A DNA stretch of 64,000 bases from Nitrospira japonica (GTDB taxonomy: Bacteria; Nitrospirota; Nitrospiria; Nitrospirales; Nitrospiraceae): assembly GCF_900169565.1 (NCBI RefSeq), contig NZ_LT828648.1, positions 2,048,876 through 2,112,875 of the forward strand, read 5' to 3'. The position numbers were made by a program, and so were the translations under genes. Under the pieces are notes generated by a model. The model saw only the letters and a list, made by a program, of their open reading frames with translations, did not search any database and was not told the DNA's origin. This document shows positions 35,179-39,758 of the stretch, one piece after another; position 1 is the first letter of the stretch, and every line of letters begins with the position of its first letter.

Positions 35179-36594
35179 ATGAAAAAGGCGAGCCTATGGG
35201 TACTGGTCGGGCTGATTGTCCTCTTGAGCTTGATCTTTGGGGGCGAGTACGTGCGGCCTACCATGAACGCGCCGCTTCCGAAGTGGAATCCTGAGTATGG
35301 ATATCGCTTTGCCAATCTCCCGCCGTCCGTGGAACACAGCACGGATAGCCTCTTTATGGTGGCATCGTTCTCCGGAGGCGGCGCACGGGCCTCGGCGCTG
35401 TCCTATGGCGTGCTGCGTGAGCTTGCCAAGACTCCCATCGTCTGGGAGGGGTATCGGAAAAATCTCGCCGACGAACTCAATATCATCAACGCTCTCTCAG
35501 GCGGCAGCTTCACGGCTGCGTATTATGCGCTGTACCATGACCGAATTTTCCGTGACTTTGAATCCCGATTTCTGCGAAAAAATTGGGAGCATGAACTTCG
35601 CGCGCGGATTTTGCAGTCTCCGAGAAATTGGTTGCGGCTCTTGTCCCCCTATTTCGGCCGGGCGCACATCTTTGCCGAACTCCTGGACGAAGGACTATTC
35701 GGCGGCGCCACGTTCAATGATCTCGTCTCGAGCAGCCAGCGGCCCATCATCTTTATTCATGCCTCCGACATGGCCACGGTCTCGCGGTTCGAATTCAACC
35801 AGCGGCAGTTTGATCTGATCTGTTCGGATCTCAGCAAAATGCCGTTGTCAGTGGCCACCGCGGCCTCGAGCGCTCTGCCGCTCGTCCTCAGCCCGATTTC
35901 GTTGAAGAACTATGCAGGCGAGTGCGGGCTCGATCCGCCGGCATACCTGAGCGAGACCAAACGGACTTCGTGGGGCCGAAGGCGTGCTAATGAGCTGCGG
36001 TCATATATTAATGCGGACAAACGCCCATACATCCATCTGCTGGACGGCGGGTTGGCTGACAACATGGGCATGCGCAGCGTGCTGGAACTCTCTGCCCTAG
36101 TGGACGATCTCGAAGCCACGTTCCAGATTCTCGGGGTGAAGAAAGTTCGGAAACTCGTGTTTCTCATGGTGAGCGCAGAAACCGATCCGGATCTGAGCCA
36201 TTACGAACTGGATGAACTCCCAAGTCTCACGCGCGTTTTGAATGCCTTGGTCGACATCCCGATCAACCGGTATTCCGACGATACCTTGGAACTGATGCGT
36301 CAGGCCGTCGTGCAGTGGCAGGTACAACTCCACCAGCGTGCACGGACGGAAAAAAGCGTCTTTGCACCCGATGCGGAAATCTATTTCATCGATGCCAGTT
36401 TGTCGGAGTTGGACGATCCGGTGGAGCGGGGACGTCTCATGAGCATTCCCACGAATCTGGCGCTGACCGACAGTCAAGTTGACGACCTGCTGCTGGCAGG
36501 ATCCAAGCTCATCAGGAGCGACAAGGATTTTCAGAGACTCGTGCGGGATCTTAAGATCGAAGCCGCAAAGGCTCCGATCATTTCCAGACGGTAG
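35179..36594 (+). CDS. Patatin-like phospholipase, copy 1
   Basis: Membrane-anchored lipid acyl hydrolase. The 471-residue protein has an N-terminal TM helix (about residues 6-21). Patatin motifs follow: oxyanion loop SGGGARAS near 66-72, nucleophile in ALSGGS with Ser near 107, and the dyad Asp in LLDGGLADN near 293. It is very similar along its whole length to the gene at 38346-39758, from the PTMNAPLPKW segment onward. The two copies flank a convergent SDR-PAS gene. Substrate is unknown; a role in membrane remodelling or envelope defence is inference. Confidence 0.85.
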   Translation: MKKASLWVLVGLIVLLSLIFGGEYVRPTMNAPLPKWNPEYGYRFANLPPSVEHSTDSLFMVASFSGGGARASALSYGVLRELAKTPIVWEGYRKNLADELNIINALSGGSFTAAYYALYHDRIFRDFESRFLRKNWEHELRARILQSPRNWLRLLSPYFGRAHIFAELLDEGLFGGATFNDLVSSSQRPIIFIHASDMATVSRFEFNQRQFDLICSDLSKMPLSVATAASSALPLVLSPISLKNYAGECGLDPPAYLSETKRTSWGRRRANELRSYINADKRPYIHLLDGGLADNMGMRSVLELSALVDDLEATFQILGVKKVRKLVFLMVSAETDPDLSHYELDELPSLTRVLNALVDIPINRYSDDTLELMRQAVVQWQVQLHQRARTEKSVFAPDAEIYFIDASLSELDDPVERGRLMSIPTNLALTDSQVDDLLLAGSKLIRSDKDFQRLVRDLKIEAAKAPIISRR

Positions 36595-36663: not shown

Positions 36664-38019
36664 TCAGGCGACTTTCTCGTTGAGCTCGATCACCGTGAAA
36701 GATCGGGTGTCCGGGTTTTGCTGGGCGCTCCAGCGACTATTGACGGTGATACGGGAGCCGTCGCGGCGTTTATGAATCAGCTGCCCGCGCCAGGCGTTCT
36801 TTTCCTGCATTTCGCGTTCAATGTTCTGAAGGGGTTCGGGAAACTTCGTCTCGAACAAGTGATGCGTGTTTGTGCCCAAAACTTCCTGGGGCGTCCACCC
36901 GTAAATGCGTTCGGCTTCGCGGCTCCAATAGCGGATCGTTCCATCCGCGTCACGCACGATCATGGCTTCGTGCGCGGCGGGCGATGCCGCATGGACCACC
37001 CGATCTTCACCACCCCGGCGGCTTGGGTGCGCCGTGCCCGTCTTTGCCTGCGAGGCGAAGTAATCCTGATACCAGCGGACCGTGCGTTCGAGGCCTTGCA
37101 TGAATCCATAAGACGGCTTCCAATCCAGCAGGCGTTTCGCTTTTTCCGATGACAACTCCATGTGCGGAATTTCGGTGGTGCTGTCTTCTCCCAAGCGCGG
37201 TTCGTCCGGGGAGTCGAGCATTCTGCAGATGTGCTGAACGATGTCTCGAACTTCTATCCGCTCGCCGTAGGAAAAGTTGAACGCCTCTCCATAGAGCTCA
37301 GGATTTTCCGATAGCCGTTCCGCCAATAGAAGCTGCACGTCGACCGCGTCCCCGATGTAGAGAAAATCCCGCGTGAACCGGCCGTTTGAACGCAGCGTGG
37401 GGATCTGGCCCTGCATGATGCTGCGGACCACGCCGGGAATCAACCGTGTGAAGTTGAAGTCGTACCCGCCAAAATAATTGCCGCAACGCGTGACGGCTAC
37501 GGGGCACTTGAAGATTTTGCCGTACGATTGGGCCGCATGATCCTGCGAGGCTTTCGCCGACTCGTAAGGATGCAGCGGCTGGAGCGCCATATCTTCCCGA
37601 TATGGGATCTCCTGGCGTCCGTAGACCTTATCGGTCGAACTGATCACGGAAATGCATTGCGGGCGGTGTTGCCGGAGAAATTCCAAGATCTGCCAGGTAC
37701 TGAGCGCGGATGACTTGAAGCACTCCAGCGGCTCCTTTAAGACCCGATGAACGTCCGCGCCGTAGGCGGCATGGAAAAAGACGTCGACCTGATGGCGGTC
37801 GAAGATACGCTCGATCACGTGCTGATCGGCAACGCTGCCCCATTCAACCCATGTCTGGTTGTCGAGCGACTCCATGAAGAATTGGGAATTGGCTTTGTGG
37901 GAACGAACCAAGCTCACGACGTGCGCGCCGCGCGAAACCAGCCGGCGCACCAGCCATCCGCCTAAAAATCCCGTCGCTCCCGCAACCAAAGCCGTTTTGT
38001 CGGTCCAGAAATTTGTCAT
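36664..38019 (-). CDS. Nucleotide-sugar 4,6-dehydratase-like SDR fused to a C-terminal PAS domain
   Basis: The 451-residue protein uses ATG 38019. Residues about 8-330 are an extended SDR of the CDP-glucose 4,6-dehydratase (RfbG) type: NAD motif GATGFLGG near 14-20, SSTDKVYG, catalytic YESAK (Y-x3-K), RCGNYFGGYD and RLIPGVVRS. Residues about 345-450 are a PAS/PAC domain: IVRDADGTIRYWSREAERIYGW, VLGTNTHHLF and RRDGSRITVNSRW. A PAS sensor on a sugar dehydratase is unusual; PAS normally binds a small ligand or heme/flavin. It may tune enzyme activity, or the enzyme part may have become a regulator. The gene converges with the first patatin gene. Confidence 0.85.
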   Translation of the reverse strand: MTNFWTDKTALVAGATGFLGGWLVRRLVSRGAHVVSLVRSHKANSQFFMESLDNQTWVEWGSVADQHVIERIFDRHQVDVFFHAAYGADVHRVLKEPLECFKSSALSTWQILEFLRQHRPQCISVISSTDKVYGRQEIPYREDMALQPLHPYESAKASQDHAAQSYGKIFKCPVAVTRCGNYFGGYDFNFTRLIPGVVRSIMQGQIPTLRSNGRFTRDFLYIGDAVDVQLLLAERLSENPELYGEAFNFSYGERIEVRDIVQHICRMLDSPDEPRLGEDSTTEIPHMELSSEKAKRLLDWKPSYGFMQGLERTVRWYQDYFASQAKTGTAHPSRRGGEDRVVHAASPAAHEAMIVRDADGTIRYWSREAERIYGWTPQEVLGTNTHHLFETKFPEPLQNIEREMQEKNAWRGQLIHKRRDGSRITVNSRWSAQQNPDTRSFTVIELNEKVA

Positions 38020-38345: not shown

Positions 38346-39758
38346 ATGAAACGAGCGGGTATTGCCATCGTCGGCATCTTGGCGCTGATCGTCTTACTGG
38401 TCCGGACCGTGGACTGGGAATTTGCCCGGCCCACGATGAATGCTCCGCTTCCGAAGTGGCATCCGGAATACGGGTACCGCTTTGCCAATCTTCCCCCCAC
38501 GGTGGATCGAAATTCGGACAGTCTCTTCATTATCGCGTCTTTCTCCGGTGGGGGCGCCCGGGCGTCGGCCCTCTCGTACGGCGTACTGAAGGAATTGGCG
38601 AAGACCCCCATCGTGTGGGAAGGCTATCGGAAGCGGCTGATCGATGAAGTGACAATGATCAATGCCCTGTCGGGCGGCAGTTTCACCGCAGCGTATTACG
38701 CGCTCTATCACGATCGCATCTTTCGGGACTTCGAATCCCGGTTTCTGCGGAAGGATTGGGAAAGCGAACTGCGCGCGCGAATCCTGCGCTCTCCGAGCAA
38801 CTGGATCCGGTTGTGGTCGCCCTACTTCGGCCGCGCCCACATCTTTGCCGAACTGCTGGACGAGGCGCTGTTCGACGGCGCCACCTTCAACGATCTGGCC
38901 TCGAGCGATCAACGGCCGATTGTCATCCTGCACGCCTCCGACATGGCGACGGTTTCGCGGTTTGAATTCAATCAACGGCAGTTCGACTTGATCTGCTCCG
39001 ATCTCAGCCAACTGCACTTGTCCGTCGCCACCGCTTCGTCGAGCGCGCTGCCGATGGTCCTCAGCCCTATTTCGTTGAAGAACTATGCCGGGCAGTGCGG
39101 ATTCGATCCTCCGCGATACCTGCTCGAGGACAACCGAAACCCGAACGGTCGTACGCGACGGAACGAACTACGCTCGTATCTCGACTCCGAGGCACGGCCA
39201 TACATCCATCTGTTGGACGGGGGGTTGGCGGACAACATCGGGATGCGTGGCGTGCTGGAGTTGTCGGCACTCGTCGATGACATCGAATCGTCCTTGGAAT
39301 TGCTGGGAGCGAAAAAGATCAAGAAGCTCGTCTATCTGATGGTGAGTGCGGAAACGATGCCGGACTTGAATCACTACAAGCTCGATGAAATCCCGAGCCT
39401 CACGCGGGCTTTGAATGCCTTGATCGACATCCCGATCAACCGGTATTCCGATGACACCTTCAAGTTGATGCGGCAGGCGGTGTCGGAATGGCGAATCCAG
39501 CTTCGGAACCGAGTCCGGACCGAGGGCGGCGTGTTCACACCGGACGTCGAGATCTACTTCATCAATGCGAGTTTGTCGGAGTTGGAAGACCCGGATGAAC
39601 AGGCCCGCTTGATGCGTATTCCGACCAATCTGGCTCTCTCCGGCAGTGAAGTCGACCATTTGATCTCCGCGGCTTCCAAGCTTCTCCGGAACGACAAGGA
39701 GTATCAGCGCCTGCTTCGTGATTTGGAGACGGAAGCGGGCAAGGGCATCATCCACTAA
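38346..39758 (+). CDS. Patatin-like phospholipase, copy 2
   Basis: The 470-residue paralogue of the gene at 35179-36594 has the same architecture: N-terminal TM helix, SGGGARAS oxyanion loop near residue 66, nucleophile Ser in ALSGGS near 107, and Asp in LLDGGLADN near 292. Long blocks are identical between copies (for example PTMNAPLPKW, SRFEFNQRQFDLICSDLS and DIPINRYSDDT). The N-terminal helix and the C-terminus differ most. Both active sites look intact, so neither copy is an obvious pseudogene. It converges with the PiT gene with 17 bp between the stops. Confidence 0.85.
   Translation: MKRAGIAIVGILALIVLLVRTVDWEFARPTMNAPLPKWHPEYGYRFANLPPTVDRNSDSLFIIASFSGGGARASALSYGVLKELAKTPIVWEGYRKRLIDEVTMINALSGGSFTAAYYALYHDRIFRDFESRFLRKDWESELRARILRSPSNWIRLWSPYFGRAHIFAELLDEALFDGATFNDLASSDQRPIVILHASDMATVSRFEFNQRQFDLICSDLSQLHLSVATASSSALPMVLSPISLKNYAGQCGFDPPRYLLEDNRNPNGRTRRNELRSYLDSEARPYIHLLDGGLADNIGMRGVLELSALVDDIESSLELLGAKKIKKLVYLMVSAETMPDLNHYKLDEIPSLTRALNALIDIPINRYSDDTFKLMRQAVSEWRIQLRNRVRTEGGVFTPDVEIYFINASLSELEDPDEQARLMRIPTNLALSGSEVDHLISAASKLLRNDKEYQRLLRDLETEAGKGIIH

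Follow-up and report, generated by a model that had tools for sequence, protein, structure and literature searches.

A probable RfbG-like nucleotide-sugar dehydratase ending in a PAS domain in Nitrospira japonica, and related PAS domains on other surface-glycan enzymes

PAS domains are known mainly as the input of kinases, cyclases, phosphodiesterases and transcription factors, and they commonly dimerise. Nitrospira are major nitrifiers of flocs and biofilms, and surface polysaccharide matters in aggregation. PAS domains fused to enzymes are already known; it is the set of partners described here that is unusual, and a full-text literature search – weak evidence, because its coverage is incomplete – returned no paper on the SDR-PAS architecture and none on a C-terminal PAS domain, lacking an output, that is common to glycan enzymes. 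For the AT3 acyltransferases, a review describes fusions with SGNH and alanine-racemase domains and leaves PAS unmentioned (PMC9558356), and the SGNH domain of such AT3 fusions lies outside the cytoplasm (PMC7448272, PMC9558356).

The gene studied here lies on the minus strand of a 64,000-nucleotide stretch of N. japonica DNA (the window), at 36664..38019, and reads as a single frame of 451 aa plus stop, uninterrupted from an ATG at 38019 to a stop at 36664-36666. From N- to C-terminus it encodes an RfbG-like NDP-sugar 4,6-dehydratase domain of the extended SDR type (residues 3-322; 37054..38013), a 22-residue linker (residues 323-344; 36988..37053) and a PAS domain (residues 345-451; 36667..36987). 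A preliminary description of this DNA had placed both domains in one continuous frame, and a second, independent full-length SDR-PAS fusion bears this out: it too is a single open frame, found in a Nitrospiraceae genome of a different genus (G146), where the locus is not the same and the neighbour genes are unrelated to those of the window gene. The two copies are 75% identical in the SDR, 18% in the linker and 60% in the PAS domain, and NG86 dN/dS between them comes to about 0.07 (SDR) and about 0.11 (PAS domain), values that are indicative only since dS is saturated. Both domains are apparently under purifying selection, and the linker is apparently fast-evolving. A frameshift or chimera is ruled out by the second intact copy together with this selection pattern, and a virus or plasmid origin was rejected, as the viral contigs and plasmids searched held no fused relative.

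The domain order, which at the outset had seemed non-standard, is indeed rare: the G146 copy is the only other full-length fusion among 147 family genomes and 79 genomes of its own genus. Close SDR homologues (69-80% identical) without PAS are present in at least eight other Nitrospira genomes; because these proteins stop soon after the SDR, the PAS domain is an extra part, and because they exist, it is not required for catalysis. The SDR-PAS gene is flanked, on the opposite strand, by a pair of patatin-like paralogues (35179-36594 and 38346-39758, both plus) that share 74.4% identity over 469 residues, and the position of the gene looks like an insertion into a tandem duplication of a patatin-like gene. 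A functional tie to these neighbours was dropped, as the G146 copy has other genes around it.

The RfbG-like extended SDR with intact glycine and YxxxK motifs noticed in the preliminary description is upheld by Pfam (GDP_Man_Dehyd, 1.1e-40, residues 11-312; Epimerase, 9.2e-40, residues 10-240), by PDB sequence and fold matches, and by the motifs themselves. Read directly, the NAD(P)-binding motif is GATGFLGG (residues 14-21; 37957..37980), invariant in 20 relatives, and the catalytic motif is Y152-x-x-x-K156 (37552..37566), also invariant. T129-D130-K131 (37627..37635), read directly and aligned to 1rkx and 1g1a, occupies the site of T-D-E in RmlB-type enzymes, with the active-site Lys in place of the RmlB Glu just as in the CDP-glucose enzyme 1rkx; D130, K131, Y152 and K156 are invariant in the alignment of 20 relatives. 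A fold search with the SDR model gives as its top match 1wvg, a CDP-glucose 4,6-dehydratase, and the best NCBIfam model is that of the same activity (TIGR02622), for which the window SDR is the top match in its own genome (173.7 bits; runner-up 76). The score against this model, 173 bits, is below the curated cut-off of 278, and for that reason CDP as the nucleotide is not settled.

Genomic context is suggestive for relatives of the SDR more than for the SDR-PAS gene itself. A genuine glucose-1-phosphate cytidylyltransferase, RfbF (446 bits), is encoded in the same genome 1.88 Mb from the SDR-PAS gene, in a glycan locus having an epimerase of another type. An unfused SDR relative, 69% identical, lies two genes from RfbF on an Acidobacteria contig (L032), and relatives of 39-40% identity directly adjoin RfbF in three further genomes (G019, G080 and G086). 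RfbF is present in 10 of 11 genomes with a strong SDR homologue versus 63 of 136 others (Fisher p 0.0045, uncorrected for relatedness). We regard the SDR as RfbG-like and probably CDP-glucose-specific. Unfused Nitrospira relatives of the SDR (L047, L049 and L051) have nearby either a histidine kinase paired with a response regulator or a response regulator of the diguanylate cyclase type.

The PAS half matches Pfam PAS (PF00989) at 8.7e-15 over residues 348-441, with 55 bits against a gathering cut-off of 22.6, and also exceeds the cut-offs of PAS_9 (38.9 bits against 27) and PAS_4. The protein stops four residues past E445-L-N447, ahead of the expected DIT position, and both the DIT motif and an output domain after the PAS are absent from it. 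Among PAS domains of the same genome, located by profile search, the nearest relative, 56% identical, forms the C-terminus of an AlgX-like SGNH protein. That SGNH-PAS gene is followed by one for a putative membrane-bound O-acyltransferase (AlgI type, N-terminus judged by eye; L070 5525-8890, near C1:2865000). Structure prediction, proposed in the preliminary description, succeeded for part of the protein: in the AlphaFold2 model the SDR is confident and the C-terminus is low-confidence with its secondary structure in PAS order. Both PAS models (PAS alone and full protein) were computed without relatives, and their pLDDT over the PAS domain is too low for comparing folds or pockets. The preliminary description suggested that a ligand or the redox state gates the making of sugar nucleotides, which is possible. 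The window PAS sequence gave no identifiable ligand motif and no assignable haem or flavin signature; a match to FixL is restricted to residues of the first PAS strands, and the Asn of the NifL W..G...N motif would, we presume, correspond to H416.

The pattern is wider than the preliminary description had seen, in that the same PAS clade ends several other predicted glycan-modifying enzymes. A profile search of family genomes, with the hits then read from sequence, yielded SGNH/AlgX-like proteins with PAS (n=14, 566-599 aa), AT3-SGNH O-acyltransferases with PAS (n=12, 748-814 aa, L124 including masked sequence), hexapeptide-repeat acyltransferases with PAS (n=3, 376-406 aa), the two RfbG-like SDR fusions, and four PAS fragments or remnants. 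In all 31 intact carriers examined the PAS domain ends within 37 residues of the C-terminus, and neither a DIT signal motif nor an output domain is present. In a tree of 29 enzyme and 14 kinase rows, the C-terminal PAS domains of enzymes form one branch (support 98/97), separate from the kinase PAS, and the window PAS belongs to this branch together with the PAS domains of the SGNH, AT3-SGNH and hexapeptide carriers. Histidine kinases of the same family have a homologous PAS that continues as '...LELNTDIT...' into the kinase, whereas the enzyme carriers stop soon after E-x-N. The two share the core residues R356, W365, Y373-G-W, H386, T391-x-F-P, W410-x-G-x-L-x-H416, S428-x-W430 and E445-x-N447, from which we infer that the PAS fold, and perhaps the type of ligand, has been kept. 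At least 28 PAS positions are nearly invariant across the four enzyme types. To judge from these sequences, the enzyme-attached PAS looks like an attachment common to unrelated surface-glycan enzymes.

Profile matches at threshold were found in 36 of 395 Nitrospirota genomes, two of them kinases, leaving 34 genomes with enzyme-PAS proteins, part of these being counted from the profile match and not every one read as a full open reading frame. The 34 fall in three genera of Nitrospiraceae. Enzyme-PAS proteins were found in none of 398 genomes of the phylum of a Mesorhizobium locus and none of 247 of the phylum of the Acidobacteria locus, where the sole match is a kinase. Confinement of the clade to Nitrospiraceae is provisional, because the samples are thin and distribution scoring covered only the best candidate places per genome. 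Three candidates outside the family (G434, G341 and G1070) turned out to be histidine kinases.

Exchange of modules is indicated by a locus with matching flanks – a symporter gene, a gene of 144-145 aa and a dinB-like gene – in two genomes. Between these flanks G146 has an SGNH-PAS gene (L107 4319-6118) and G098 an AT3-SGNH-PAS gene (L108 4158-6503). Identity between the two is 80% over the PAS domain and the tail that follows, and the enzyme parts ahead of the PAS show no significant similarity to each other; SGNH-PAS proteins from other genomes match the L107 enzyme at 60-65% identity. Read from these alignments, the enzyme has been swapped ahead of a closely similar PAS domain. At two further loci PAS outlasts the loss of most of the enzyme: an acyltransferase-3 remnant in the N. 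japonica genome consists of a short N-terminal piece, a stop, and a C-terminal piece with an intact PAS (L071 6261-6860, near C1:1386305), and an AT3-SGNH-PAS gene in G041 (L118 4766-5422) has an in-frame internal deletion that leaves a 218-aa frame with the AT3 start, the SGNH end and the PAS. This swap and these remnants, like the close SDR homologues without PAS, are what would be expected if the PAS were a folded but functionally minor passenger, spread onto gene ends by recombination and retained for stability only. We consider that improbable, given purifying selection on the PAS, its nearly invariant positions over four enzyme types, and its retention across 34 genomes.

The carriers appear to differ in compartment. 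By simple hydropathy, strongly hydrophobic segments are absent after the SGNH domain of the Nitrospira AT3-SGNH proteins and absent altogether from the SDR and hexapeptide carriers. Homology places the PAS of AT3-SGNH carriers outside the cytoplasm, while the carriers of the SDR and hexapeptide types look cytoplasmic, and we infer that enzyme-attached PAS domains would act on each side of the inner membrane. This bears on the idea that PAS serves docking or dimerisation, keeping the dehydratase, like the other glycan enzymes, within a complex or at a site of assembly, with no small molecule being sensed. Dimerisation is frequent among PAS domains, the closest solved sequences to the window PAS include dimerising BMAL/ARNT-like PAS, and docking would suit one module on functionally related enzymes from which the output domain is absent. 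Carriers predicted on both sides of the membrane (PMC7448272, PMC9558356) make one common partner unlikely, however, and the PAS has its core residues in common with the input PAS domains of kinases; we therefore think docking rather unlikely, while giving it more credence than a passenger.

The preliminary description had also raised the possibility that the SDR is itself a sensor. On such a reading it would bind nucleotide sugar or NAD(H), and the PAS would relay the signal to a separate signalling protein. RsbQ-RsbP, in which a hydrolase acts via a PAS domain (PMC3183031), offers a precedent, and the unfused SDR relatives near two-component or diguanylate cyclase genes fit it as well. We do not favour this reading, because no output domain follows the PAS and the catalytic residues are all intact and conserved; moreover, the same PAS clade is found on acyltransferases, and neither the window gene nor the G146 copy is adjoined by a kinase or cyclase. 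It is the least probable of the readings considered, and very unlikely.

Most likely, on the sequence evidence, the window protein is an enzyme of the CDP-glucose-4,6-dehydratase type that its PAS module tunes or docks. We favour the ranking of tuning over docking, docking over a passenger, and a passenger over the SDR as sensor. Tuning, in which PAS would be a ligand-binding or conformational module acting on its own enzyme, is favoured because the fusion is found in two genera, the PAS is under purifying selection while the linker drifts, and the PAS carriers are all glycan enzymes; our confidence in it falls just short of even. The SDR would convert NDP-glucose, most likely CDP-glucose, to NDP-4-keto-6-deoxyglucose under regulation by the C-terminal PAS, a module that is kin to the PAS of Nitrospira histidine kinases and would have spread among surface-glycan enzymes of Nitrospiraceae. 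By binding a small ligand or shifting conformation, the PAS may adjust the activity of the attached enzyme, and one cue could in this way govern multiple steps of surface-polysaccharide synthesis and O-acylation; a single common cue is made less simple by carriers predicted in two compartments. More broadly, and quite tentatively, this lineage-specific, output-less PAS may serve Nitrospiraceae as a common plug-in, placed on enzymes of surface-glycan assembly and acylation to either side of the inner membrane, with the catalytic domains ahead of it exchanged and one cue reaching several steps directly, without kinase or transcription.

A PAS clade that sits at the end of its polypeptides, fused directly to glycan enzymes, would put the domain to another use, in which envelope enzymes are tuned or docked directly. 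The same PAS on four enzyme types is a natural series for separating the role of the PAS from that of its partner. Compared with RfbG (TIGR02622; 1rkx, 1wvg), the window SDR has the extended SDR fold, the TDK and YxxxK site, and RfbF beside its relatives, but it scores below the family cut-off, carries a C-terminal PAS absent from the solved enzymes, and is not in an operon with RfbF in its own genome. With the Nitrospira PAS-histidine kinases (e.g. L126) it shares the PAS subfamily, the core residues and the E-x-N ending the last strand; theirs runs into '(T)DIT' and the kinase, whereas the window protein stops and its PAS falls on the separate branch. The Nitrospira AT3-SGNH carriers keep the standard AT3, SGNH order of OafA/OafB-type O-acyltransferases (PF01757 and PF19040) and differ from them in the additional C-terminal PAS. 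As in the RsbQ/RsbP-PAS system, an enzyme and a PAS domain would cooperate and one PAS type has several partners (PMC3183031); unlike in the window fusion, the PAS of RsbP is N-terminal, is encoded apart from the hydrolase, and is normally tied to a phosphatase, kinase or cyclase output (PMC3183031).
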